NCBI RefSeq assembly: GCF_024753565.1
Contig: NZ_JANTPT010000001.1
Location: 1,026,513-1,090,512 of the forward strand
DNA: 64,000 nt
Direction: 5' to 3'
Origin: Mechercharimyces sp. CAU 1602
GTDB lineage: Bacteria > Bacillota > Bacilli > Thermoactinomycetales > JANTPT01
The stretch's first letter is position 1; each line of letters opens with the position of its first letter. The notes beneath the pieces were generated by a model that was given only the letters and a program-made list of their open reading frames with translations, was not told the origin of the DNA and searched no databases. The position numbers and the translations under genes are program-made. Below, piece after piece: positions 4,072-64,000 of this stretch.

Positions 4072-4434
4072 ATGACGTCAGAAAGCCGTGTTCTCACGCA
4101 AAAACAGATAGCAGAGTCATTTTCCAATGGTGATTTTGAGCCTTCTTTTCCATGTCTAGCAAAAACCATTGAATGGAATATCGTTGGTGACAAAACCATA
4201 GAAGGTAAAGAAGCTGTAATAGAAGAATGCAAGCAAACTTCAGATTATTTCAAAACTATAACCACTAATTTTACTACACTAAATGTCATTTCCGAAAAAA
4301 ATCGCGTTGCCGTAAATGGAACAGCTGAATTTATTCGCGATGGCCAACGATTATCTTTTGTGTCAGCTTGTGATGTGTATACGTTTAATGATAAACATGA
4401 ACTGCAAAGAATTGATTCCTATTGTATTAAATGA
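4072..4434 (+). CDS. SnoaL/NTF2-like domain protein
   Basis: A 120-residue single-domain protein of the cystatin-like alpha+beta cone fold, judged from the pattern of an N-terminal helix, the EWNIVGDKTIEGKEAV segment and alternating C-terminal strands. Members of this fold act as small enzymes or ligand binders, so no substrate can be given. It has its own promoter and a strong terminator, is a single-gene unit, and interrupts the ypjB-to-mazG order seen in Bacillus. Confidence 0.65.
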   Translation: MTSESRVLTQKQIAESFSNGDFEPSFPCLAKTIEWNIVGDKTIEGKEAVIEECKQTSDYFKTITTNFTTLNVISEKNRVAVNGTAEFIRDGQRLSFVSACDVYTFNDKHELQRIDSYCIK

Positions 4435-4455
4435 GACACTACCCTTGTCTGGTGA

Positions 4456-4509
4456 GTAAGAATAAGAAGAGCCCTGCGGCAACTGCCGCAGGGCTCTTCT
4501 TATTCTTAC
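4456..4509. terminator. Bidirectional terminator with perfect 25-base arms
   Basis: Bases 4456-4480 are exactly complementary to 4485-4509 around an AACT loop. The GC-rich inner stem is flanked by A/T-rich outer arms, so it can end both the SnoaL gene and the opposing YitT gene, whose stop codon lies at its edge. Confidence 0.9.
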
Positions 4510-5369
4510 TATGTTCGTTCAAAGGAAAATCCTTCCCCGAGTACATCTTTTACATCATGGACTACAACAAACGCTTGAGCATCCACACCATTGATCAGTT
4601 GTTTTAAACGGGGGAGCTCATTGCGGCTCACGACCACATAGAGAACCTCTTTATCCATTCCTGTATAGCCGCCACGTCCTTTGAGAAGGGTAATACCCCG
4701 ATCCATTTCCACTGTGATTTTATTAGAAATAGCGACAGCAGAGTTAGAAATAATCGTAACTGCTTTTGAGGAACTCATCCCTTCAATCACAAGGTCAACT
4801 ACACGTGATCCAATAAAGACAGCCACCATGGTATACATCGTTTTTTCGCGTCCAATTTCAAAGGCATTAATCGCAATAACACAGGAGTCAAATAAGAACA
4901 TGGTTTTCCCAATGCTCCAGTCGTGATACTTGTTCATGAGACGCGCAATAATGTCTACGCCGCCCGTAGTGGCCCCTACACGGAAGATCAATCCCAAACC
5001 AGCACCCACACACACGCCTGTATACAGAGCTGCAAGGAGAAGGTCATCACTTAATTTACCTAGATCAGAAAAGTTTTTTGTAACCTCCAGGTTAACAGAG
5101 ACCATGGCAATCCCAATGATGGTATAGATAAAAGTACGTTTCCCCAATACTTTGTAACCAATAAAGAGTAGGGGGATGTTAAGCAATAGGATAACAATCC
5201 CAGGTGAGAACCCAAATACATAATATAAAAAGATGGCCAGTCCAGTAAAACCGCCTTCTGCTAATCCATTCGTCAAGGCAAAGTTATTAATTCCGATGGA
5301 AAAAATCAAGGATCCGATGACTATAAAAAACATATCATAGGCTATTTTTTTCCAGTTTTGTAGTTTCAT
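4509..5369 (-). CDS. YitT family membrane protein (YpjC-like)
   Basis: About five or six hydrophobic helices in the first 200 residues are followed by a cytoplasmic DUF2179-type domain (residues about 210-285, with GRGGYTGMDKEVLYVVVSR). This architecture defines the YitT family, whose transport function is not established. In Bacillus, YpjC occupies this interval. The ATG at 5369 is preferred because GGGGGCGA precedes it and it matches family N-termini; an upstream extension to 5483 has no support. Length is 286 residues. Confidence 0.8.
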   Translation of the reverse strand: MKLQNWKKIAYDMFFIVIGSLIFSIGINNFALTNGLAEGGFTGLAIFLYYVFGFSPGIVILLLNIPLLFIGYKVLGKRTFIYTIIGIAMVSVNLEVTKNFSDLGKLSDDLLLAALYTGVCVGAGLGLIFRVGATTGGVDIIARLMNKYHDWSIGKTMFLFDSCVIAINAFEIGREKTMYTMVAVFIGSRVVDLVIEGMSSSKAVTIISNSAVAISNKITVEMDRGITLLKGRGGYTGMDKEVLYVVVSRNELPRLKQLINGVDAQAFVVVHDVKDVLGEGFSFERT

Positions 5370-46836: not shown

Positions 46837-47634
46837 ATGAGCTTGTTTTTTCATGAATTAAAATCTAAATGGAAAGCTTTGTTTTTCTGGTGTCTGGGTG
46901 CAAGTGCTCTGGTTGTCTCCGGAATGAGTGAATATAGCGGACTACAGGGCACAGGAGAGTCGATGAACGAGTTGATCGCTCAGATGCCAGAATCGCTCCA
47001 AGCGATCTTAGGAACAGGAACACTTGATCTATCCACAGCCACAGGTTACTTCGGGATGTTATTTTCGTATCTGATTTTGATTACTACGATCCATGCGGTC
47101 TTACTAGGCACAAGTACGATTGTAAAAGAAGAGCGCGAGCGAACAGCAGAATTTCTTATGGTAAAACCGATCTCCCGCAGTCGTGTACTCACACATAAGC
47201 TGCTTGCTGCTGGATGTAATCTCTTGCTCCTCAATGGAGCCAGCACCATAACGGCAGTAATCAGCATCTCTGTTTTTGCTACCGAAGGAGAATCGAGTAA
47301 GCATGTTGTAATGCTGATGATAGGAATGCTGTTGACACAATTAATTTTCTTTACACTGGGCATTACTATAGCTACATGGGGAAAGTGGTTAAAACGCAGT
47401 ACCATCATCGGAGCAACACTCTTACTTATCTGCTATCTCCTGTCTATCGCTATTGATTTAAATCCAAGTTTTGAAGCACTGAGCTACGTGACACCTTTTA
47501 AATACTTCGAAGCCAAAGTTATCTTAAACGAAGGCTCCTTAGACCCACTCTTTCTTACTATTTCATTTATCGTGATTGTGCTGAGCATACTTGGGAGCTA
47601 CTCTTTATATAAGAGACGTGATCTACAAATATGA
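46837..47634 (+). CDS. ABC-2 type permease, second
   Basis: 265 residues, six helices, with FLMVKPISRSRVLTHKLLA parallel to the first permease. Last gene of the tetR-ABC operon. Substrate unknown; export of a drug, peptide or lipid is usual for the family. Confidence 0.85.
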   Translation: MSLFFHELKSKWKALFFWCLGASALVVSGMSEYSGLQGTGESMNELIAQMPESLQAILGTGTLDLSTATGYFGMLFSYLILITTIHAVLLGTSTIVKEERERTAEFLMVKPISRSRVLTHKLLAAGCNLLLLNGASTITAVISISVFATEGESSKHVVMLMIGMLLTQLIFFTLGITIATWGKWLKRSTIIGATLLLICYLLSIAIDLNPSFEALSYVTPFKYFEAKVILNEGSLDPLFLTISFIVIVLSILGSYSLYKRRDLQI

Positions 47635-47642
47635 AGTTAATC

Positions 47643-47689
47643 AAAATAAGAGGACAGAGAGGATTTTCCGCTCTCTGTCCTCTTATTTT
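47643..47689. terminator. Strong bidirectional terminator of the ABC operon
   Basis: AAAATAAGAGGACAGAGAG (47643-47661) pairs exactly with 47671-47689. Confidence 0.92.
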
Positions 47690-47696
47690 GCACTTA

Positions 47697-48102: not shown

Positions 48103-48597
48103 TTGAGCCATTACTTTAGTAAAAAGAAATTAGCACAAAAGAAAAGGAAGTTTCCACGAAAAGCAGACCCCGGTACTGTTAATCCGGATAATATAGGGGA
48201 TTTTTTCTCCGATCCTTCACAGGGTGGCACCGATGATGTGATAACTGCTACGGGACCTGCTCCGTCACCTCTCCCTTCTATGGTTTCACCTGATATCATC
48301 GCTAGTATTGGAAATGTACAAACCTTTGATTTACAAACATTTAACCCCCAAAGTATGTCTGTAATCGAATTAACTAGACAATCCGTCGTGGTCACCGTAG
48401 GCAGAGGATTAAGAGAGCTCCCTCTCATACGTTTAGAAGCAGGCGAAGGCGCAGTTGTACTTTTTAATGATGTATCAGGTAGACCAGCCGCGTCCTTAAT
48501 CGTTCAAGGTAATTTATCCCTTAATCATCGATTGCGCCGGGTAATCTTAAATACCGGTGAATTTGTTGCTGTTATTCGATCTCAACGCTCCTCCTAA
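48103..48597 (+). CDS. Unrecognised 164-residue protein heading the radical SAM cassette
   Basis: The N-terminus (1-20) is very basic (SKKKLAQKKRKFPRK), then an acidic, Gly/Asp/Pro-rich linker (22-55) and a beta-type C-terminal domain (90-164) with regular strand spacing. No cysteine, no membrane segment and no known leader motif is seen. TTG at 48103 follows AAAGGA by nine bases. It lies 50 bases before the radical SAM gene on the same strand and could be its substrate or partner; this is inference. Confidence 0.55.
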   Translation: MSHYFSKKKLAQKKRKFPRKADPGTVNPDNIGDFFSDPSQGGTDDVITATGPAPSPLPSMVSPDIIASIGNVQTFDLQTFNPQSMSVIELTRQSVVVTVGRGLRELPLIRLEAGEGAVVLFNDVSGRPAASLIVQGNLSLNHRLRRVILNTGEFVAVIRSQRSS

Positions 48598-48647
48598 CAA
48601 AACTAAAATTACCACTTGCTTTAATCTCGCAGAAAGGAAGTGTATTA

Positions 48648-50534
48648 GTGCAAATTGCACTCGTTAACATGCCATTCGGCTCTTTAGATCGGCCACCCAT
48701 CGGAATTAGCCTTTTAAAATCCCAAGTCGAACTTCAAGGCCATTCATGTAAAAATCTTTTCTTAAATCTGAAACTCGTTGACTACATTGGTGTTGCAACT
48801 TTTAACCACATATCAAATACCATCCCCTCATTACTAATTGGGGAATGGCTCTTTTCCTCCTCTCTCTTTCCAAATAAGCAAAAAGAAGAGGAATATCTGA
48901 AACTCATTCCAGAACGTTTGGGTTATCGAACCCCCATCTATTCTTCAGAAAATCTACTTCAAATAAAGCAAAAAATCTCTATATATTTAGATGATTGCAT
49001 CGATGACTATCCCTGGATCGATTTTGATCTTATCGGCTTTACTTCTGTCTTCGAACAAAACGCGGCCTCTCTAGCACTAGCCAAGCGAATCAAGGAAAGG
49101 TGGCCGCAAAAAAAAGTTATTATTGGAGGAGCTAATTGCGAGGGGCCTATGGGAGTAGCCATGATCAAGGCATTTCCCTTTCTCGATTTTATTTGTCAAG
49201 GAGAAGGAGATCTATCCTTTCCTATATTAGTTGATCGGATCGCAAGCAATGGCTCCACAGATGATATACCAGGTATCCTTACGCCTGTCAATACAGATAA
49301 ACCCTCCCCCCACAAAGCCAATATGGTAACAAATCTCGATCAACTACCTTATCCAGACTACACGGACTACTTCGAGCAGTTCTGTGATGCTGGCTTATCC
49401 GCTTTGCTAAAACCAGTCATCCCTTTTGAAACTTCACGTGGATGCTGGTGGGGTGAAAAATCCCATTGTACGTTTTGTGGATTAAATGGATTAAATATGC
49501 GCTTTCGAAGCAAAAATTCAGAAAGAGCGATTCAGGAAATTGAAACCCTCCGCAATAAATACCACGAGCATACAACAAGCATGGCTGCTGTAGATAACAT
49601 CATAGATTATAAATATTTTCAAGACTTTATTCCGAAGTTAATTGAATTGGATCTCGGAGTAGATCTATTTTATGAAACGAAAGCAAATATCAAACGAGAG
49701 CAGCTGGATTTAATAAAGAAAGCTGGATTTACCTCCATTCAACCTGGCATTGAAAGTTTAATTACCGACGTTCTCAAAAGGATGAGAAAAGGGATTACGA
49801 TGTTACAAAACGTTCGTCTATTGAAGTGGTGTGAAGAGTTCGGAATCACACCTGCGTGGAATATTCTCTTTGGCTTTCCTGGAGAAAATCCAGCGGACTA
49901 CCAACACATAGGGAAAGAGATGATTCCTAAATTGGTTCACTTTCACCCTCCATTAGCATGTGCTTCTTTTCGCTTAGATCGATTCAGTCCTTATTTTGAC
50001 TACTCTGCACAGCATGGCATAATCAATGTGAAATACAATCGGGTATACAAATACATTTACTCAGAGCTAACCGATGCCGAAAGGGAAAAACTAGCGTATT
50101 ACTTTGAATTCGAATATGATGATCAACGTCAACCGTCTTCCTATACGCAAATGCTACAAAAAGCTGTTTATTCATGGAAAGAGAAATATGACTCCTGTTT
50201 TTTCTGTTTCGTGAAAATCCCTAATGGTATCCGTTTTTTTGATAACCGTACAAACGCAGACGGAGATATCTACGACTTATATGGATGGGAAGCTGAACTT
50301 TATCAAAGTGTGGATGATATCAAAACGGCCAGTGGAGTTCACCCGATGTTTCAAAGTGCAAAAAAAACCATTACAGTAGAACAGATAGAAGCCAAATTGG
50401 ACGAATTTGTTGCTAAAGGATGGGCCCTACATGAAGGTGGGCGCTATCTCGCTTTAGCGATCCCAGAGGGTATATATTCTTTACCCGATGAAATGCTCGA
50501 CCTGCTTCAAGAGCATGGTTCCTCCCCACGATGA
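48648..50534 (+). CDS. RiPP maturation radical SAM C-methyltransferase (B12-dependent type)
   Basis: 628 residues. An N-terminal cobalamin-binding-like domain (about 1-210) begins IALVNMPFGSLDRPPIG and contains LNLKL and IGEWLF, as in the ocin-type family. The radical SAM core has C266, C274 and C277 in GCWWGEKSHCTFCGLNG, the unusual CX7CX2C spacing of this family in place of CX3CX2C. It is expected to methylate unactivated carbons of a ribosomal peptide using SAM and cobalamin. GTG start follows AAAGGAAG by seven bases. No leader peptidase, transporter or classical precursor is adjacent. Confidence 0.85.
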   Translation: MQIALVNMPFGSLDRPPIGISLLKSQVELQGHSCKNLFLNLKLVDYIGVATFNHISNTIPSLLIGEWLFSSSLFPNKQKEEEYLKLIPERLGYRTPIYSSENLLQIKQKISIYLDDCIDDYPWIDFDLIGFTSVFEQNAASLALAKRIKERWPQKKVIIGGANCEGPMGVAMIKAFPFLDFICQGEGDLSFPILVDRIASNGSTDDIPGILTPVNTDKPSPHKANMVTNLDQLPYPDYTDYFEQFCDAGLSALLKPVIPFETSRGCWWGEKSHCTFCGLNGLNMRFRSKNSERAIQEIETLRNKYHEHTTSMAAVDNIIDYKYFQDFIPKLIELDLGVDLFYETKANIKREQLDLIKKAGFTSIQPGIESLITDVLKRMRKGITMLQNVRLLKWCEEFGITPAWNILFGFPGENPADYQHIGKEMIPKLVHFHPPLACASFRLDRFSPYFDYSAQHGIINVKYNRVYKYIYSELTDAEREKLAYYFEFEYDDQRQPSSYTQMLQKAVYSWKEKYDSCFFCFVKIPNGIRFFDNRTNADGDIYDLYGWEAELYQSVDDIKTASGVHPMFQSAKKTITVEQIEAKLDEFVAKGWALHEGGRYLALAIPEGIYSLPDEMLDLLQEHGSSPR

Positions 50535-50706
50535 CTATCTAGCTGAATTCATCAGCACCCCTCCTCTTTTGTCCTATCTAGGAATCAAGAATCCACTTTT
50601 CATGGTGTTCTACACTTCCATAATTTCTATTTTCTCATACTATATTATGATCGATCATTTCTAATTATCGAGATGATCTATTTCATAGGATTAGAAAGGG
50701 GTGTTA

Positions 50707-51504
50707 ATGTTGCAAGGGTTGAAAAGAAAGACTCACCTACCCTTTTTTCAATTGAATCGTCCTTTGTATAACAAACACTTACCCCTCGTTATATTTTGGA
50801 GTCCGAAAAGTGGGTGTACGACAATTACCAAATGGTTTTTCTACCAAATAGGTCTTCTTGATACAGCTTTGCGTTATGATCCATGGATTCATCGGTATCG
50901 GGGCGTTTACTACGGAAAAAATCCGCATTACCTGAAGGAGCTTAAGGAAAGTTTATCTAGTGGGGTGAAGAAATCATATAAATTGGTTCGCAATCCCTAT
51001 ACAAGAGCAGTTAGTTCGTACCTTCATGCTTGTCAACACAGGGTAGAGTGGCGGGAAATGAATCAATATATTAACGGAGAGGAGATAAGCCAACAAGGAA
51101 TCTCATTCAAAGAGTTTTTGTACTACGTTAAATATAAAGGACCAAGCAAGCATGTAATAGATGCTCATATATCACGACAATTTATGGAGGGAGAAAAAAA
51201 GTGGGTAAGAGACTATATCTATTTGGAAAACCTCTCGCAAGAGCTTAGAAAACTCGAGCGGATCCACCAATTGAAACAATCGCCGATAATGCGCCTCGCT
51301 CAATCCCATCATCATAGAAAGAGAAAACCTGTCTCAAAAATGAACGATCATTTAGCTACTCAGAAAAATACACCTCATTCCCTCCCAGAGATAATTCCTG
51401 CTTATCGATCATTTTATGATCAAGAAGCGATCGCATTGGTTCAAAAAATATATCGCATAGACTTCGAAATCTATCGATACCCATTAAAGCCAATGATTGA
51501 TTGA
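50707..51504 (+). CDS. Sulfotransferase family protein
   Basis: 265 residues. SPKSGCTTITKW (32-43) is the PAPS 5'-phosphosulfate loop and LVRNPYTRAVSSYL (93-106) the 3'-phosphate motif with R95 and S103. This is the family-2 carbohydrate/peptide-type sulfotransferase fold, rare in Bacillales. ATG at 50707 follows AAAGGG. It lies 172 bases after the radical SAM gene, on the same strand with no terminator found between; a shared pathway is inferred. Confidence 0.8.
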   Translation: MLQGLKRKTHLPFFQLNRPLYNKHLPLVIFWSPKSGCTTITKWFFYQIGLLDTALRYDPWIHRYRGVYYGKNPHYLKELKESLSSGVKKSYKLVRNPYTRAVSSYLHACQHRVEWREMNQYINGEEISQQGISFKEFLYYVKYKGPSKHVIDAHISRQFMEGEKKWVRDYIYLENLSQELRKLERIHQLKQSPIMRLAQSHHHRKRKPVSKMNDHLATQKNTPHSLPEIIPAYRSFYDQEAIALVQKIYRIDFEIYRYPLKPMID

Positions 51505-51639: not shown

Positions 51640-51681
51640 AAATTAAAAGTCATCTGCACCAATGCAGATGACTTTTAATTT
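51640..51681. terminator. Bidirectional terminator
   Basis: AAATTAAAAGTCATCTGCA (51640-51658) pairs exactly with 51663-51681. It separates the radical SAM cassette from the convergent subtilase gene. Confidence 0.9.
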
Positions 51682-51757: not shown

Positions 51758-53407
51758 TTACTTACTAGTAGCATTTATTCCCCAAACGGAAATTTCTGCA
51801 GCTGAAGTCCATGGTTGACCATGTTTTTCAGATAATGCTACTAATTTTAGATACCTCCCTGTTTCAGGGGAGATTTCTATCACTTTTTCTTCTTTATCAA
51901 AATTGAAGCTTCCTGAAGCTACAGGGGTACCCCAATCAGTTAGATCGTCACTTATATAAATCTCGTATTCTTTTATCATGCCATGATCTGAATTATCTTG
52001 GCGTGGCAAATAGCTAAATTGATTCATTTCATACCGAGACCCTAAATCGATTTGAACTTCATGAGGGGGATAAGGATCAGGATGTCCCTGCCATTTTGTA
52101 TGCCAGAAGGTATTAGGATTATTATCGAAAACATTTACAGCTCTCCCGTCTTCAGCAACGGTTTCTTCACTATCAGTAAAGACAAGAGACCAATTTTCTT
52201 TTGGAATCTCTCTTGGTTCATCCGGATTCGCATGTACTTTCACAGATTCGAAAGCATTGATTCGTCCGTAAGTCCAGTACGTTCCTGTTCCAGGAATATC
52301 GTCAGCAGTACTTTCTAACACATTTCGAATTTCCACATTTCCTAATCCTTGTGATGCAAGTAAACCTGCTACTCCTGCTGTATGAGGGGACGCCATTGAA
52401 GTTCCGCTTTTCTTCCCATACCCCCCGCCAAGTGTAGTTGACATGATAGAAACTCCTGGAGCAGATACATCTACCCAGTCCCCATAGGTGGAAAAGGAAG
52501 CTTTACGATCATTAGAATCTGTCGCTGCAACTGCAATGGAATTTTCGTAGTATGCTGGATATATAGGAGAAGTACCCCCTGAATTCCCCGCAGCACAAAC
52601 CACAACAGACCCCTTAGACCAGGCATATTTCACTGCATCTTCTACTAATCGAGAACCACCACCGCCACCTAAACTTAAATTTAATACTTCTGCTCCTTGA
52701 TCTGCTGCATAAATGATTCCTTGTGCTACTTGAGCCCAAGTGCCTCCACCTGATGCATTTAATACGCGCACAGGCAGAATATTTACTTCGGGAGCTACAC
52801 CAGCTACTCCCCGATTATTATTTGTCACAGCTGCAATGGTTCCAGCTACATGAGTTCCATGACCGTGTTCATCGTAAGCATTATCATCATTGCTAACAAA
52901 ATCGTATCCTGGTAGTACCTTACCCTGTAAATCAAGGTGATCCGTCTGTACGCCTGTATCTAACACAGCGACAACAACATCATTCGTTCCCTTCGTAATA
53001 TCCCACGCATCCTCGGCTTCCATCTTTTGTGGTCCGTATTGGTCAGACAAATAGAGAGGATCATTAGGAGTCCAAAGCGCTTTATAGTGCCCATTTATCT
53101 CAGCATATTCTACTTCTTTCATGCCTTCATAATCTTTTATTGCTTGTTGAACCGTTCGATTCTTTACTTCTACAACATCAAAATGTAACGACTGGTTTCT
53201 AGAAATAAGCTTTGAATCCTCTGATTCGTGTAATTGTGTTCTTATTTTCGTAGACACTTCCGATTTAAACTTAATAATGATTTGACTAGATTCTTGTTTA
53301 GACTGCTCTGTTTTTGAACGATTAGAATCTGATGCAAATCCAACAGAAGAGGATATTACCATACTGATCGCCAAAAGCATACTAAATATCCACATTAAGT
53401 GTTTCAA
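51758..53407 (-). CDS. Secreted subtilisin-like serine protease with discoidin domain
   Basis: 549 residues from the TTG at 53407, which follows GGAGGTG. Signal peptide to about 25, an I9-type propeptide (40-110), and the S8 domain with D150, H183, oxyanion N275 and S337 (GTSMASPH). The C-terminal 145 residues are a F5/8 type C (discoidin) domain (NPNTFWHTKWQG...EVQIDLG...GRYLKLVAL), a carbohydrate or surface-binding module. Calcium-site loops of subtilases are present. A role in processing surface proteins of this region is possible but unproven. Confidence 0.9.
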   Translation of the reverse strand: MKHLMWIFSMLLAISMVISSSVGFASDSNRSKTEQSKQESSQIIIKFKSEVSTKIRTQLHESEDSKLISRNQSLHFDVVEVKNRTVQQAIKDYEGMKEVEYAEINGHYKALWTPNDPLYLSDQYGPQKMEAEDAWDITKGTNDVVVAVLDTGVQTDHLDLQGKVLPGYDFVSNDDNAYDEHGHGTHVAGTIAAVTNNNRGVAGVAPEVNILPVRVLNASGGGTWAQVAQGIIYAADQGAEVLNLSLGGGGGSRLVEDAVKYAWSKGSVVVCAAGNSGGTSPIYPAYYENSIAVAATDSNDRKASFSTYGDWVDVSAPGVSIMSTTLGGGYGKKSGTSMASPHTAGVAGLLASQGLGNVEIRNVLESTADDIPGTGTYWTYGRINAFESVKVHANPDEPREIPKENWSLVFTDSEETVAEDGRAVNVFDNNPNTFWHTKWQGHPDPYPPHEVQIDLGSRYEMNQFSYLPRQDNSDHGMIKEYEIYISDDLTDWGTPVASGSFNFDKEEKVIEISPETGRYLKLVALSEKHGQPWTSAAEISVWGINATSK

Positions 53408-53589
53408 AAATAGCACCTCCGGTATATTTTTTAATAGAAAAGCATTTGTTTTCACAAATTATCTATTCGAATCATTGGTATATATCGATTTAAATCGACA
53501 ACCAACTCTATATTATGAAAAAATGTTAGCAAGTGTGACAAGTTCATAGTTGAATTCTATATGATTGCAGACCAAACAGACTATAAAAA

Positions 53590-53847: not shown

Positions 53848-55923
53848 TCATACATCAAACTCGCCTTCCCCTGTCCCGCGTGGGCCACGTGGGCCTCTCG
53901 GTCCTCTTCTTCCCCTTGGTCCGCGCGCGCCTGATGGTCCCGTTATTCCCATTGATCCAGTTGGTCCCGTTGAACCAGTCGGGCCCGTTGGTCCAACAGA
54001 AATCAATTCCCCCACTTTGAGAACGAAGGCATCAAATCCACCAGCCAATTGGGTTTGAACCGCATTAAAGGTGACCGGGTAATCTGATGAGCCTGTTGAA
54101 CCCGTCATAAGCGCATTATTATCACTATCAACAGTAACAGCACTGCCCGTATCTGTATCAACCCCTCCAAGATAGGAAGAGAAAATGAGCCCTTGACCCG
54201 AAAAACTAACTTGTGTAATAAACGCCTCATCTAACCCCGTCAAATTTGAAATACTATCTTGAAAAGCATCTGAAGTGACCGGATAGTCAGATGAAACGGT
54301 TTCCCCTACGACCCAAGCAGATCCAAATGAATCAACAGCTATTCCTTTTCCTACATCGCTATCTGTTCCACCTACAAAAGTGGAATAGACCAAAGCACTG
54401 CCAGTTGCATTTAGTTTGGTGACAAACACATCACTTGATCCAGCTAGAAGAGTTTGAAAAGCATTATTTGTGGTGGGAAAATCTTTTGAATTAGTCAAGC
54501 CTGTTACATAAGCATGATTGGCACCATCAAGATCTATCCCATTACCTCCGTCGTTTTCACTTCCTCCCAAAAAGGTGGAATATATAAGGGAGGTACCTAA
54601 TGCGTTTAGTTTCGAAACAAAAGCATCGCTGTTCCCTGCAAGTATAGTTTGAAAGGCATTTGTCGTTACTGGGAATTTGACTGAATTTGTCGCTCCAACG
54701 ATGTAAGCTTGTAAACTAGAATCTACTGCAATGCCCGTTCCTCCATCGAATTCTTCTCCTCCTAAATAAGTAGAGTATATAAGAGAAGTACCCGCTACAT
54801 TCAACTTACTGACAAACGCGGCTTCCTTTCCAAGAAGGACTGTTTGAAAAGCACCTGTGACTAGAGGGAAATTTGTAGAGCTGGTATCTCCAGTTACATA
54901 AGCATTATTATTCTCATCTAAGTCAATCCCCGCTCCGTTATCGACCCCACCTCCACCCAAATACGTAGAGTAGACAAGAGAGCTTCCGACAACATTCAAC
55001 TTTGTAATAAATGCACTCAAAGTCCCTCGTAGCATGGTTTGAAAAGCGCTTGATGTAACGGGAAAATTTGTTGAACTTGTTCTTCCAATGATATAAGCAT
55101 TACCCATGGTATCAACACGAATTCCCTGTCCACTATCCGTCCCTCTTCCTCCTAAATAAGTGGAGTAAATAAGTGAACTTCCAGTCGCATTTATTTTACT
55201 AACAAATGCTTCAATGCTCTCAGCCGATGTTACCATACTTTGAAAAGCACCCGATGTAACAGGGAAATTAGTTGAGTTTGTATTCCCTGTCACGAAAGCA
55301 TTTCCATCCTGATCAGCTACAATTCCGAGCCCATTATCAAATTCTGTTCCGCCGAGATAAGTAGAGTAAAATACTATGGGATCAATGGTAAGTACTTTAG
55401 TGGAATCGTATTCTTCTTCGAGTTTAAAACCAATCACCTGATCATCTGAGTGTAAATCAAATCTAGTAGAAAGAAACCGCTTTTTCTCACCTTCGCCTTG
55501 ATGGCTAACGGGTTTCTTTTCATGTATGATTCCATTTACAGTTATCACCCTTAAGTTCCCTGCCTCATCAAGAAATAGCTCTTTTCCACCGTCATACTCA
55601 AGTCGTATACAATCTATTTGTGCCCCTGGTTGTAAAATGAAGTCATATTTCAGTGCATCATTTTCCTTGTAAAATACTACATCTATACCTGGCCATACTT
55701 TTGAATAGGTAATCGTATCTTTCGATCCGTTTCCAGATGATTTTTGTGGATACATGTGGTCACAACCCTGTAAGAAGCGAAGAGTACAGATCGTTTTTGC
55801 TTGATTACTTATTTGAACTCCACGAGAAAGAAAATCCACCCATATACCACACTCCAAAAACCATCTAGCTTGATCACTTTCTAAGCGATTACCTTTCCCT
55901 TTACTTTCACCATACATACCCAT
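53848..55923 (-). CDS. SBBP-repeat (seven-bladed) protein with collagen-like C-terminus, copy A
   Basis: 691 residues. N-terminal domain of about 195 residues (WPGIDVVFYKENDALKYDFILQPGA, the region usual before SBBP repeats), then seven repeats of about 66 residues, each opening with a YSTYLGG-like strand and containing GIAVD, AYVTG and NFPVT. The tail from residue about 640 is Gly-X-Y: six or seven Thr/Ser-type triplets, then Arg-rich ones (GPRGRRGPRGPRG), about 14 triplets, ending GEGEFDV. No signal peptide. Probably a spore-surface fibre or coat protein; that is inference. Confidence 0.85.
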   Translation of the reverse strand: MGMYGESKGKGNRLESDQARWFLECGIWVDFLSRGVQISNQAKTICTLRFLQGCDHMYPQKSSGNGSKDTITYSKVWPGIDVVFYKENDALKYDFILQPGAQIDCIRLEYDGGKELFLDEAGNLRVITVNGIIHEKKPVSHQGEGEKKRFLSTRFDLHSDDQVIGFKLEEEYDSTKVLTIDPIVFYSTYLGGTEFDNGLGIVADQDGNAFVTGNTNSTNFPVTSGAFQSMVTSAESIEAFVSKINATGSSLIYSTYLGGRGTDSGQGIRVDTMGNAYIIGRTSSTNFPVTSSAFQTMLRGTLSAFITKLNVVGSSLVYSTYLGGGGVDNGAGIDLDENNNAYVTGDTSSTNFPLVTGAFQTVLLGKEAAFVSKLNVAGTSLIYSTYLGGEEFDGGTGIAVDSSLQAYIVGATNSVKFPVTTNAFQTILAGNSDAFVSKLNALGTSLIYSTFLGGSENDGGNGIDLDGANHAYVTGLTNSKDFPTTNNAFQTLLAGSSDVFVTKLNATGSALVYSTFVGGTDSDVGKGIAVDSFGSAWVVGETVSSDYPVTSDAFQDSISNLTGLDEAFITQVSFSGQGLIFSSYLGGVDTDTGSAVTVDSDNNALMTGSTGSSDYPVTFNAVQTQLAGGFDAFVLKVGELISVGPTGPTGSTGPTGSMGITGPSGARGPRGRRGPRGPRGPRGTGEGEFDV

Positions 55924-57868: not shown

Positions 57869-59914
57869 CTAACCTTCCATACCCCCACCAATACCTCGTG
57901 CTCCTCTAGCCCCTCTCGGTCCTCTCCTCCCTCTCGGCCCCCTCGGTCCTTGTGACCCGGTAGTTCCTGTTGGACCAGTAGCTCCCGTTGGACCAGTGGC
58001 CCCAAACTGCTCTCCTACTCTTATCAGGAAGGCATCTTGAGCACCACCCCCAAATTCAGTTTGGAAAGCACCGTCGGTCACAGGAAAATCATTTGATTCT
58101 GTTTCACCTATACCATATGCAATATCGTCTCGATCCACCGTCACGCCATTACCAGTATCATCACTATTGCCTCCTAAATACGAAGAAAAGGAGAGCCCTT
58201 GACCTGTATAACTTAACAAGGTAATAAACGCATCACTATCACCTGACAAACTATCTTGAAATGTTTCTGAAGTTACTGGGAAATTTGTCGATTGAGTACT
58301 TCCTATCACCCAAGCCATCCCAAACGAGTTTACAGCAATTCCATTGCCCTCATCTCTTTCCGTCCCACCTAAAAGAGTAGAATAAACTATATTGCTCCCC
58401 GCCGGATTAAATTTCGTAACAAAAGCATCTTGAGCCCCCGACGCTATAGTCTGAAAAGCGTTGTTCGTCGTTGGGAAATTAGTAGAACGGGTGCATCCCG
58501 TTACATATGCATAGCCATCGTTCAAGTCGATGGCATTTCCATCATCGTTACTTGATCCACCGAGATAAGTAGAATAAATCAAACTGGTGCCAGTAGCATT
58601 CATCTTAGTAACGAAGACGTCTCTTCCTCCGCCTAGTACAGTTTGAAATGCTCCTACTGTTGTCGGGAAATTAGTAGATGATGTACTACCCACAATATAA
58701 GCTTGATTACTGGTATCCGCTACAATACCCAGTGCTCGCTCCACTCCATTTCCACCTAAATAGGTAGAGTAAAATAAAGTGGATCCCGTCGCATTAAGTT
58801 TGGTTATAAAGGCGTCTGACGAACCTTCTAACTGCGTTTGAAATGCACCTGAGGTTATAGGGAAATTTGAGGAACTAGTACTACCTGTAACATAAGCGCG
58901 ATTATTTTCGTCGATAGCAATAGATTCCCCAGTATCGAAGCTGGCGCCGCCTAGATAAGTAGAATACAAAAGTGTGGATCCTGTTTCATTCAGCTTTGTA
59001 ATAAATGCCGATGCGCTCCCGCGTAAAAAAGTCTGGAAAGCACCTGAAGTTATCGGGAAATCCGTCGACTCTGTCCTCCCTGTTACATAGGCGTTTCTTG
59101 ATGAGTCCACCGTGATACCACCGTTAGAATCAGAATCAGATCCTCCTAAGTAAGTGGAATAGAGAAGGTTTCCCTGCTTATTAAATTTACTAACAAATAC
59201 ATCTATAAGGCCACCCGCAAGTTGAGTTTGAAATGCTCCTGATGTTACGGGAAAATTAGTTGAAGATGTCGTTCCAGTCACATAGGCACTCTTCTCCTCA
59301 TCGACTGCAATACCAAGCCCCCGATCATTGCCGGATCCTCCTAAATAAGTAGAATAAAAAACAAGTGGATCTATCATGAGTACCTTCGTGGGATCATACT
59401 CTTGCTCTACGGCAAATCCAACACATCCATCTGAATAAAGCTGAAAACGTGTCTCTATCTCTCTTTTCCCTTTATCTGTAAACTGGATACTTAACGGTTT
59501 GCCTTCACGAAGAATACTTTTTTTCGAATATACCAATAAATCTCCTTGTTCACTTAATACAACATCGTCTCCACCCTCGTAACGCCAACAGATATTCTCA
59601 ATATTGGCACCTGGGTACACCATCATATCATACTTCAATTGTTCCCCTTGTCCATAAAATACGACATCGATTCCCTGCCAAATATCCTTGTAGACTACAG
59701 ACTGAAACCCTCGCTCATTCTGACTTACTCCTTTAGGTACAACTTCCTCGTGTGCACCTACAAACCGTAGCATAAGTTCAGAAACTCCATTTATAAAAAA
59801 CTGTACGCCCCCTTTGTCAAATATATAGCAATGGCCCTCACCAATTGTAGCATAAGTATCTCCCATCGGCTGGAACAAGAGGGTTTTCGATCTATTCATA
59901 TGGATGCTTTTCAA
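57869..59914 (-). CDS. SBBP-repeat (seven-bladed) protein with collagen-like C-terminus, copy B
   Basis: 681 residues from a TTG that follows GGGGGG. N-terminal domain with DIWQGIDVVFYGQGEQLKYDMM, then seven SBBP repeats of about 66 residues, each starting YSTYLGG or a variant, and a final Gly-X-Y tail of about 13 triplets (GATGPTG..., then GPRGPRGRRGPRG) ending GGGMEG. Copies A and B share layout over their whole length but differ in sequence. No export signal, so placement from inside the mother cell is likely if it is a spore protein. Confidence 0.85.
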   Translation of the reverse strand: MKSIHMNRSKTLLFQPMGDTYATIGEGHCYIFDKGGVQFFINGVSELMLRFVGAHEEVVPKGVSQNERGFQSVVYKDIWQGIDVVFYGQGEQLKYDMMVYPGANIENICWRYEGGDDVVLSEQGDLLVYSKKSILREGKPLSIQFTDKGKREIETRFQLYSDGCVGFAVEQEYDPTKVLMIDPLVFYSTYLGGSGNDRGLGIAVDEEKSAYVTGTTSSTNFPVTSGAFQTQLAGGLIDVFVSKFNKQGNLLYSTYLGGSDSDSNGGITVDSSRNAYVTGRTESTDFPITSGAFQTFLRGSASAFITKLNETGSTLLYSTYLGGASFDTGESIAIDENNRAYVTGSTSSSNFPITSGAFQTQLEGSSDAFITKLNATGSTLFYSTYLGGNGVERALGIVADTSNQAYIVGSTSSTNFPTTVGAFQTVLGGGRDVFVTKMNATGTSLIYSTYLGGSSNDDGNAIDLNDGYAYVTGCTRSTNFPTTNNAFQTIASGAQDAFVTKFNPAGSNIVYSTLLGGTERDEGNGIAVNSFGMAWVIGSTQSTNFPVTSETFQDSLSGDSDAFITLLSYTGQGLSFSSYLGGNSDDTGNGVTVDRDDIAYGIGETESNDFPVTDGAFQTEFGGGAQDAFLIRVGEQFGATGPTGATGPTGTTGSQGPRGPRGRRGPRGARGARGIGGGMEG

Positions 59915-60142: not shown

Positions 60143-60691
60143 TTATTTCCTGCACTCCTGTAAAGGTACCTCCCACCAGGCGAAACTTTCACGGGCTTTT
60201 GTAGGACTAGGGCTAATAAATACAGAGATTAGTGTACTCCTAGGAGCTATAATTACACTTCCAAGAGATGTGATAGGAGTGATAACCGTAGAGTTTGCTG
60301 GTAAACGTCGGATGGAAATAAACTTACCACCCTTGAAAGGACTAGTAGTAGCGGAATTAAACTTCACTTTTGCCCGTGGGATGGGTGAAGGAGAACGTAG
60401 TGGAGAGGTATTGGTTGAGGAGATTTGGGAAGATGTAATTTGCCTACCTGTGGGCAGAGCGTTAAATAATATTTTAGCTGTCATTGGCTGAGATGATAAA
60501 TTATATTTTTCTGCTGTATCTAAAACCACATTAACCCCTGAATGAAGCGGATTAAACAAACCTGCCCAAGCGAATCTTGCTCCTTCGGGAGAAAGTAAAC
60601 CCGATTGCCCACTAAAATGCTTCCCTTCAACCCTGCGAATTAACTCCGGAGTAGGAGGAATCGTAGTCACAGTTTGTAATTGGTCTGACAT
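60143..60691 (-). CDS. DUF6143-like protein
   Basis: 182 residues. The layout, KHFSGQSG, FAWAGLFNPLHSGVNVVLD, a central Ser/Thr/Pro linker and a C-terminal FAWWEVPLQ, fits a small beta family I know as DUF6143, found in spore formers; this is recall, not a search. Strong AAGGAAGGAGG site. Its C-terminal half has a second, truncated copy after the laccase gene. Unknown function; its neighbours suggest a spore-surface role. Confidence 0.6.
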   Translation of the reverse strand: MSDQLQTVTTIPPTPELIRRVEGKHFSGQSGLLSPEGARFAWAGLFNPLHSGVNVVLDTAEKYNLSSQPMTAKILFNALPTGRQITSSQISSTNTSPLRSPSPIPRAKVKFNSATTSPFKGGKFISIRRLPANSTVITPITSLGSVIIAPRSTLISVFISPSPTKARESFAWWEVPLQECRK

Positions 60692-61014: not shown

Positions 61015-62568
61015 TCATTCTTCAAAATCATCAATCACGTCAAAAGGACGCATCATTTCCCAATCTTCATGTTCAATAATATGACAATGAAGAACGTATC
61101 TCCCACTAAAAGGACCATAGCGAGCAATAATTGTTGTTACTTGACCTGGATCAGCCCGCACGGTATCTTTAAACCCTCTTTCATTGGGAGCAGGAAGGAT
61201 TTTCTCGGATGTAAATATCAACTCTCCTGTTTGTGTAAATCGATTAACATCAAAGTTTTGCCTATGCAGGATTTGAAACTCCACCAGATGAACATGAATG
61301 GGGTGGGAATCAGGAGTTGTGTTTATAAAGCGCCACACTTCAACTGTATTAAGTGTAGGCGTAATGGTCACAAAATCTGCAAAAGGTGTATTGTTTAATA
61401 GTAGCTTAAGTCTTCCAAATTGATCGGTCGACTCATCTAGTGTAATGTCACGTGTGTTTATAGACTCTGTTTTTTTCAGCGGCGTAATGCGACTAAGGAC
61501 ACTGGGTATACGACTTCCATCTCTACTGGAGAGAGGGAGCGTTACACGAAATTGCATCACCATATTCGTGTTGCTGTTAACGGGTGTACCAGTTGGAAAA
61601 GGCGAAGGGGCATCATTAGTAATCGTAATGGCTTCCCCTTTGTTTCCGGAAAAGTCGATAATTACATCTGCTCGTTCAGCAGGCCCTAGGAGCAATTCTT
61701 CTACTCGAACAGGCTTTGCCAGTAGTCCGCCATCGGAACCTATTTGGATAAAGGGTTGCTGAGAACTTAGCCTCATACGGAAAAAACGGGCATTGGCCAG
61801 ATTTAATATTCGAAACCGGTATTTACGAGGCTCCACCTCAAGATATGGGTACAGCTTCCCATTCACAAGGAGGTTATCGCCAAAGAACTCTGGAACAATC
61901 GATGGAATAATCCCTGAAGGGTTAGGTACAGGTTGATCAGGATAAAACAAAGATCCATCTAAGTTAAATGACTTGTCCTGTATCACTAGGGGCATTTCGA
62001 AATCTCCTCGGGGAAGTACGAGTGCCTCCTCTTTTAAGCTACGAATAATATAAAAACCAAATAGACCAGCATAAACATTTAGTCTCGTAAGGGCAAATGC
62101 ATGATCGTGATACATAAGTGTGGTCGGTCGTTGCCCATTTAGGTACTCAAACACATCCGAGAAAAATGTAGGCCCAACATGGTTAAGGTTTTTCGAGTAC
62201 CAAGCAGTGGGAAAACCATCATATACGGCTTGCGTTCTTCCTCCGTGTAGATGCACCACCGAAAGCCCAGTTATTGGGAGGATTTCTTTTTGTGCTGGAG
62301 TAAGGACTGTCGTATCAACAGGGAGAAATTGTTGATCAGGAAGGTTATTGATCCATTTCACGCGGACACGTTCATTGACTCTTACATTAAACGTCGGTCC
62401 TGGATAGATTCCATTGTATCCCCAGATGGTAGAAGGAGGGAGAGATCGATCAAACTGATGCTTTCCTTCTCTCATCTCTACTCTATAGGACGTATATAAC
62501 CTTTTTTTCTTAAAAGGCTGGATGACGGGGGGAATTGGAAGTGGGTTAACGAATTTTTCGAACTCCAC
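61015..62568 (-). CDS. cotA: CotA-type multicopper oxidase (laccase)
   Basis: 517 residues. Copper ligands: VVHLHGG (H106, H108), MYHDHA (H154, H156), HPIHVHL, and LHCHIIEHEDWEMM with H494, C495, H496, H500 and the axial M505, spaced as in Bacillus CotA. All ligands are present. CotA oxidises aromatic substrates in the outer spore coat and makes the brown pigment. Its presence among the propeller/collagen genes supports a spore-surface cluster. Confidence 0.92.
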   Translation of the reverse strand: MEFEKFVNPLPIPPVIQPFKKKRLYTSYRVEMREGKHQFDRSLPPSTIWGYNGIYPGPTFNVRVNERVRVKWINNLPDQQFLPVDTTVLTPAQKEILPITGLSVVHLHGGRTQAVYDGFPTAWYSKNLNHVGPTFFSDVFEYLNGQRPTTLMYHDHAFALTRLNVYAGLFGFYIIRSLKEEALVLPRGDFEMPLVIQDKSFNLDGSLFYPDQPVPNPSGIIPSIVPEFFGDNLLVNGKLYPYLEVEPRKYRFRILNLANARFFRMRLSSQQPFIQIGSDGGLLAKPVRVEELLLGPAERADVIIDFSGNKGEAITITNDAPSPFPTGTPVNSNTNMVMQFRVTLPLSSRDGSRIPSVLSRITPLKKTESINTRDITLDESTDQFGRLKLLLNNTPFADFVTITPTLNTVEVWRFINTTPDSHPIHVHLVEFQILHRQNFDVNRFTQTGELIFTSEKILPAPNERGFKDTVRADPGQVTTIIARYGPFSGRYVLHCHIIEHEDWEMMRPFDVIDDFEE

Positions 62569-62832: not shown

Positions 62833-63270
62833 TCAGATAGAAATATTTAAATCCGAATTACGGCTAGTAATTTCGTAGAATTGAGAATTACTTACATTAG
62901 AGGAGGCGGTTACTCGAAACAATGTTGCTTGATTAAAAAAAGCTGCTCGAACAAGTGGACTGTAAACGCGGAATAAGACCCGTGCTATATTTGAAAGAGT
63001 GGGTGCATAATTTACACGAACAATGGGCTGTCCGGTACGAGGTACATTCACTCCTCTTTGTGCTATAACAGATCCTTGCCAAGATTTAGACATTGTGTTA
63101 TATAGAGCCCAAAAATTTCTATTTTGTATTGCCCCCGTCGGCATCGTGGCTAATTTTTCAGAAATAAGGGATTGGAAAGACACTTGCATTAGGGGTTCAA
63201 AATCACCGTTTTCCGGAAAATAGCGTGATGTTGCATTAAAAGTAATCTCTGTTCCATACGTCGTTGGCAT
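62833..63270 (-). CDS. Hypothetical protein in the spore-surface cluster
   Basis: 145 residues, no cysteine, no membrane segment, mostly beta with many Asn/Arg/Ser (NFWALYNTMSKSWQGS, VRVNYAPTLSN). Family not recognised. ATG follows AAAGGTAGAG. An overlapping frame just after its stop reads YFYLIYDNATRKSKRSTKKKNPAK, so the C-terminus may have been lost by a frameshift. Confidence 0.55.
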   Translation of the reverse strand: MPTTYGTEITFNATSRYFPENGDFEPLMQVSFQSLISEKLATMPTGAIQNRNFWALYNTMSKSWQGSVIAQRGVNVPRTGQPIVRVNYAPTLSNIARVLFRVYSPLVRAAFFNQATLFRVTASSNVSNSQFYEITSRNSDLNISI

Positions 63271-63381: not shown

Positions 63382-64000
63382 TTAAAAATTCAACTCCCCT
63401 TCACCTCTAGTCCGTGGTCCTCTAGGGCCACGCGGTCCACGAATTCCTCTCATTCCCCTAGGTCCAGTGGAGCCAGTAGCCCCACGTGGACCTACAGAAG
63501 TAAGGGAGCCCACCTTCGCAACAAAGGCGCTTTCGTTGTTATTGGTGGAGGGGCTGGTTGTTTGAAAAGCGGCGAGTGTGACTGGAAAGTTAGTAGAAGA
63601 AGTTTCGCCTGTAAGATAAGCAATCCCATCGAAATCTACCGCGATATCTCTCCCAGTATCCTCGCCTATCCCTCCCAAGTAGGAAGAGAAGGAAATTCCT
63701 TGTCCGGAATAACTCATCTGGGTAACAAAAACATCAGAAGAAAATTGTGTGGTGGTTGCAGAAGCCAAGCTATCCTGAAAAGCATCGGAAGTAATAGGAA
63801 AGTCCGTCGAAAACGTAGCCCCTGTTACCCAGGCAGCTCCAAAATCATCCACTGCAATTCCATTTCCAATCTGAGCGACATCACCACCTAGATAGGTGGA
63901 GTAAACTGTATTTCTACCTGTTGCATTCATTTTAGTAACAAATGCGGTCGGTGCAAAAGCGGTAGAGGTAGATTTCATCGTCTGGAATGCATTATTGGTT
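63382..64000 (-). CDS. SBBP-repeat protein with collagen-like C-terminus, copy C (partial)
   Basis: The frame is open to the right edge of the window, so the N-terminal part is missing. The visible part holds the last SBBP repeats (VYSTYLGG, ISFSSYLGG) and a Gly-X-Y tail of about nine triplets (GPRGATGSTGPRGMRGIRG...), ending GEGELNF. Same family as copies A and B. Confidence 0.85.
   Translation of the reverse strand, partial: TNNAFQTMKSTSTAFAPTAFVTKMNATGRNTVYSTYLGGDVAQIGNGIAVDDFGAAWVTGATFSTDFPITSDAFQDSLASATTTQFSSDVFVTQMSYSGQGISFSSYLGGIGEDTGRDIAVDFDGIAYLTGETSSTNFPVTLAAFQTTSPSTNNNESAFVAKVGSLTSVGPRGATGSTGPRGMRGIRGPRGPRGPRTRGEGELNF

Follow-up and report, generated by a model that had tools for sequence, protein, structure and literature searches.

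A duplicated gene pair in Mechercharimyces sp. CAU 1602 that joins a PoyC-type radical SAM C-methyltransferase to a large orphan protein, its probable substrate

We describe here a two-gene unit that occurs twice in the genome of Mechercharimyces sp. CAU 1602 and consists of a gene for an orphan protein of 164 or 186 residues (ORF1) followed by a gene for a radical SAM enzyme of the rSAM_ocin_1 family. One copy (copy 1) lies in the 64,000-nucleotide stretch of DNA analyzed here, referred to as the window, and the other (copy 2) lies about 47 kb downstream of it on the other strand. On balance we favor, if with modest confidence, the interpretation that the enzyme is a PoyC-type C-methyltransferase dedicated to ORF1, which would be an unusually large and folded substrate and possibly a surface protein of late sporulation.

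In the window the pair is part of a run of three open reading frames that share one strand and have a strong terminator on either side (Table 1), in agreement with the first-pass annotation, which had described a radical SAM gene, a sulfotransferase gene and a gene for an unrecognized protein between two such hairpins. The hairpin beyond the sulfotransferase gene has A and T runs on its opposite sides and may therefore serve both strands. The sulfotransferase gene is separated from the radical SAM gene by 166 nt, compared with 50 nt between ORF1 and the radical SAM gene, and no strong terminator was found in the 166-nt gap. An ABC exporter operon terminates just upstream of the run and a subtilase gene lies just downstream on the opposite strand, and neither adjoins copy 2. 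The absence of a peptidase and an exporter noted in the first pass thus holds inside the unit, but both kinds of gene flank copy 1.

Table 1. Features at and around the two copies of the gene pair (window positions unless a locus is named).
Feature	Position	Strand	Basis or remark
ABC exporter operon	46837..47634		terminates upstream of the run
Terminator hairpin closing the upstream ABC-transporter operon	about 47642..47690		-32.1 kcal/mol, z -9.4
ORF1, orphan protein, 164 aa, probable substrate	48103..48597	+	homologue upstream of the second radical SAM gene; without Pfam or NCBIfam match
B12-binding radical SAM C-methyltransferase (predicted), rSAM_ocin_1/PoyC-type, 628 aa, CX7CX2C	48648..50534	+	TIGR03975; PF04055 Radical_SAM; paralogue at 66% identity; tree
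Family-2 sulfotransferase, judged a neighbor outside the unit	50701..51504	+	PF03567; stand-alone relatives
Terminator hairpin 3' of the sulfotransferase gene	51640..51681		-24.5 kcal/mol, z -10.5
Convergent subtilase gene, product with F5/8 type C domain	51758..53455	-	complete match to a sigma-K-type promoter; not kept at copy 2, given for context
SBBP beta-propeller protein with collagen-like tail	53848..55923	-	context only
Further SBBP genes	57869..59914; 63382..63978; L003:5989..8061		also at many places on contigs C1-C3
ORF1 homologue of copy 2, 186 aa	L003:11510..12070	-	directly upstream of the second radical SAM gene

A profile search of the genome finds exactly two loci above the TIGR03975 cut-off, and gene order is kept between them, with a gap of 76 nt between the genes of copy 2. 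The copies are 46% identical in ORF1 and 66% identical in the enzyme, and at codons for identical amino acids their third bases mostly agree at only about 30-70% of positions. This divergence of third positions even where the proteins are identical rules out recent gene conversion, and points to an old duplication with both copies under selection rather than to recent copying. The neighbors of copy 2 encode a short-chain dehydrogenase, a MerR-type regulator, an ArsR-type regulator and an SBBP/collagen-tail protein, and no sulfotransferase, peptidase or exporter adjoins it. Because this second pair has no sulfotransferase, the conserved unit is ORF1 and the radical SAM gene, a pair that was duplicated long ago and is maintained by purifying selection. 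No other open reading frame of at least 20 residues is common to the gaps of the two copies, which leaves no shared short precursor hidden there. ORF1 accompanies the enzyme in both copies of this genome, and since it is known from one genome, these two paralogous loci are the whole basis for the co-occurrence. The cassette proposed in the first pass is accordingly retained for the pairing of ORF1 with the enzyme and given up for the sulfotransferase; the duplication had been missed.

The 628-residue protein matches TIGR03975 with 634.6 bits, where the cut-off is 281.85, over positions 1-606 of the 606 in the model, which bears out the earlier prediction of an ocin-type RiPP C-methyltransferase. 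It also matches the radical SAM domain of Pfam, and its cluster motif CWWGEKSHCTFC has the CX7CX2C form, a strict pattern that fits 65 of 83 relatives; the B12-binding region gives a weak Pfam match (E 7e-5, below the family cut-off). By these sequence criteria the enzyme is assigned to the cobalamin-dependent radical SAM C-methyltransferases of the PoyC/rSAM_ocin_1 kind. According to a review, PoyC has a Cx7Cx2C motif and methylates C-beta of Ile and Val (PMC11285071). PoyB and PoyC of polytheonamide are the studied representatives of this kind, and the likeness of the window enzyme to PoyC is here a likeness of motif. The unit differs from PoyB/PoyC-type systems in that it has no lyase, epimerase, peptidase or exporter, and in that the genome holds two paralogous units. 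It differs from known rSAM_ocin_1 systems also in the partner, which is otherwise a proteusin, Nif11 or short precursor, but is here an orphan of 164-186 residues whose beta-rich C-terminal domain is conserved.

In the class, rSAM_ocin_1 genes with high scores turn up in just 5 of 399 genomes, and the nearest relatives in named genomes belong to many phyla, are only about 40% identical, and have no ORF1 homologue within 8 kb. In a tree of 83 members the window pair forms a clade with a sequence from another Bacilli genome, G349 (SH-aLRT 96; 43% identity). The G349 locus (L148, 6983-13631) is an ordinary RiPP cluster, in which the radical SAM gene is followed by a 57-residue precursor-like reading frame, MNMSEKKKLILSPDAFHVNENGEVVIVSEQVREALVNSSEEAAVGEQGVTVSVSVSI, which ends in GVTVSVSVSI, and by genes for an M16 peptidase and an MFS transporter. 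Thus the sister enzyme has a short precursor-like product encoded downstream of it, together with a peptidase and an exporter, but no ORF1 homologue, and ORF1 resembles the G349 precursor no better than shuffled sequences do (p 0.15-0.21). A further Bacilli member, in G242, is accompanied by a 59-residue reading frame and a YcaO gene. These neighborhoods of the Bacilli relatives favor a peptide or a protein as substrate, and no Nif11 or NHLP sequence was found among the small neighbors of the 80 nearest loci.

Other arrangements were seen around further members of the family. Nitrospira-type genomes appear to have rSAM_ocin_1-like genes beside pterin-4a-carbinolamine dehydratase, to which 12 of the 56 small neighbors scanned belong (L070, L079, L080, L082, L084, L097, L099, L114, L115 and others, the members not being paired to loci singly); this adjacency hints that the clade acts outside RiPP maturation and has no bearing on the window pair. 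A DUF5825 protein (Pfam; L129:5925-6659, in G036) is encoded directly 3' of an rSAM_ocin_1 gene and is followed in turn by an MFS gene, and a 189-residue reading frame of Alicyclobacillus shizuokensis (L116:7959-8528) that looks similar to it occupies the same position, with SDR and MFS genes; this is another recurrent cluster type.

Translation of ORF1 most likely starts at the TTG at 48103, because an AAAGGA sequence stands at the proper spacing and the paralogue has TTG at the homologous codon. The basic N-terminus, MSHYFSKKKL, is kept between the copies over its first ten residues, MSH[YH]FSKKKL; a Pro/Asp/Gly-rich linker that varies in length and sequence extends to about residue 60, and the last 100 or so residues (about 62-161) form a Val/Ile-rich C-terminal domain that is 45% identical between the copies. 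ORF1 has no Cys, no Trp and a single Tyr (Y4), which is His in copy 2, and it contains 16 Val in 164 residues, with 25 in 186 for copy 2. Neither copy matches any Pfam or NCBIfam family or any known leader family, in line with the absence of a Nif11- or nitrile-hydratase-type leader noted in the first pass. In 399 genomes of the class there were only two marginal matches (E 0.001-0.004, one of them over an interrupted frame); none was found in 398 genomes of the phylum, viral contigs and plasmids, nor in a pattern scan of genome contigs that required exact short matches. The family to which the window belongs is represented by one genome among those searched, so that the range of ORF1 is poorly sampled.

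In an AlphaFold model of ORF1 built from the two sequences the N-terminus is disordered and a domain rich in beta strands is predicted, though with low confidence (mean pLDDT 54.9); a separate model for the domain of the paralogue is worse (mean pLDDT 43.7). The best structural neighbors of the first model are alpha-crystallin domains, with VIA Z scores of 5.0-5.6 that are commonly reached, and Foldseek found nothing in the PDB better than E 0.07. Known spore proteins and neighbors were also considered as kin. PF00011, the HSP20 family to which CotM/CotP-type coat proteins belong, matches two other places in the genome and not ORF1; the endospore appendage family Enas (PF13157) has no match in the whole genome; and comparison with the DUF6143 protein encoded at 60143 gives an hhalign probability of 0.3%.

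The third reading frame does encode a sulfotransferase, as first described (PF03567 Sulfotransfer_2, E 3.6e-10, 40.8 bits, cut-off 22). Its PAPS-binding motifs WSPKSGCT and KLVRNPYTRAVSS are intact and invariant in an alignment of six relatives, and an APS kinase to supply PAPS is encoded elsewhere in the genome. A protein search of this genome found no further relative, but relatives at 35-49% identity, one of them a broken gene, are present elsewhere in the order, in four genomes, and on plasmids of Priestia megaterium (WP_252288457.1, 40% identity). None of these has a radical SAM gene among its neighbors, and a phmmer search found a sulfotransferase relative within 8 kb of none of the 80 nearest radical SAM loci (0/80). 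They are stand-alone family-2 sulfotransferases of spore formers that share the PAPS motifs of the window enzyme but have varied neighbors, some of them spore-related: Amidase_3 (cwlD-like) in G021, a BclA_C-like protein in G029 and a YjcZ sporulation protein on a plasmid. Because the gene is missing at copy 2 and its relatives stand alone, we judge the sulfotransferase to be a separately acquired member of this family and not a part of the pair. The co-occurrence of ORF1 and sulfotransferase that the first-pass annotation had looked to does not hold at copy 2, and the scattering of homologues without common neighbors that it had envisaged as counter-evidence is seen for the sulfotransferase, while ORF1 does not show it.

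A possible connection with spores comes from a large family of SBBP beta-propeller proteins of about 700 residues, of which the 2.9-Mb genome encodes at least 34, 33 of them with an arginine-rich collagen-like tail (GPRGPRGPRG). Eight of the 34 SBBP genes have a full sigma-K-type consensus upstream, against four among 203 genes of other kinds (Fisher p 2.7e-5), in a post hoc comparison that uses a simple consensus (mAC, 15-17 nt, CATAnnnTA) and mechanically picked reading frames and in which the SBBP paralogues are not independent. The four other genes include ORF1 of copy 2, where a perfect site ends 27 nt upstream of the start, and the subtilase gene beside copy 1; at copy 1 itself there is neither a good sigma-K site nor a good sigma-E site. 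The earlier suggestion of a modified spore or surface protein stays a fair guess. Among the SBBP genes of the window lie genes for a multicopper oxidase (61015-62568), a DUF6143 protein (60143-60691) and an orphan 145-residue protein (62833-63270), and this stretch is perhaps a spore-coat gene region; the genome matches DUF6143 at four places, at one of them only in part, compared with few matches in the order. Beside another SBBP gene are tandem 260-residue reading frames (L130:3306-4088 and 4118-4900), the second of which matches FkbM-type methyltransferases and has a sigma-K-type site, and which perhaps modify surface glycans.

There are several other readings of the locus to consider. ORF1 could be a long but ordinary RiPP precursor, with an N-terminal leader and a C-terminal core that is C-methylated, then cleaved off by a protease and exported, for which the subtilase and the ABC transporter on either side of copy 1 are conceivable agents. 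The name of the enzyme subfamily, taken from RiPP maturation, the RiPP cluster of the closest Bacilli relative and the two genes on either side of copy 1 all speak for this, but ORF1 matches no leader family, and the retention of the C-terminal domain while the middle linker varies is the opposite of a constant leader and variable core. Moreover, a leader peptidase and an exporter within the conserved unit, the mark of a classical RiPP system, are seen at neither copy, copy 1 being only flanked by them and copy 2 lacking both among its neighbors, and we regard this reading as unlikely, if worth keeping in view. Less probable still is that ORF1 serves the enzyme in recognition or as a partner, and that methylation falls on a different protein, such as one of the many SBBP/collagen-tail proteins. 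The folded-looking beta domain predicted for ORF1 and its basic tail would suit such a role, and an SBBP/collagen-tail gene lies within about 5 kb of both loci, but these genes are scattered over the genome, so that their closeness means little, and in rSAM_ocin_1 systems the substrate gene is usually beside the enzyme gene.

The prospect raised in the first pass, that C-methylation and sulfation are combined in a true three-gene cassette acting on ORF1 or its product, seems to us quite improbable. The common strand, the two outer terminators with no strong one inside, the intact PAPS-binding motifs and the APS kinase are all compatible with it, but the sulfotransferase is absent from copy 2 and solitary among its relatives, the one Tyr of ORF1 is replaced by His in copy 2, and PF03567 members act mostly on carbohydrates. 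A precedent for sulfation of a bacterial ribosomal peptide is RaxX/RaxST of Xanthomonas, in which the maturation of a short peptide includes tyrosine sulfation and no radical SAM enzyme; sulfation of ORF1, however, is not supported.

We therefore return to ORF1 as the substrate of the enzyme encoded directly downstream, which is its most likely role given the gene order, the duplication and the co-conservation of the two genes. The strongly conserved basic N-terminus of ORF1 may be what the enzyme recognizes, and methyl groups would be placed on unactivated carbons, by analogy with PoyC probably the C-beta atoms of Val and Ile in the Val/Ile-rich part. The product would then be the whole protein of 164-186 residues in C-methylated form, not a short peptide cut out of it, and plausibly it is made late in sporulation and located at the spore surface, to which the copy-2 promoter faintly points. 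Our confidence decreases stepwise along this series, from ORF1 as substrate to the Val/Ile carbons as sites, to N-terminal recognition and finally to a full-length product at the spore surface. A bolder extension, which we consider doubtful, is that a radical SAM enzyme like the C-methyltransferases of polytheonamide has been diverted from secreted peptides to the hardening of a folded structural protein of the spore surface by methylating carbons in its Val/Ile-rich beta domain; we know of no C-methylation as a post-translational modification of spore proteins.

To our knowledge, radical SAM C-methylation of ribosomal products has been described nearly always on short peptides. If the proposed assignment is correct, pairing with an orphan protein of 164-186 residues broadens the substrate range of the radical SAM C-methyltransferases and offers a simple two-gene system for the C-H methylation of larger proteins, and the sigma-K signal would link the ORF1-radical SAM pair to spores.
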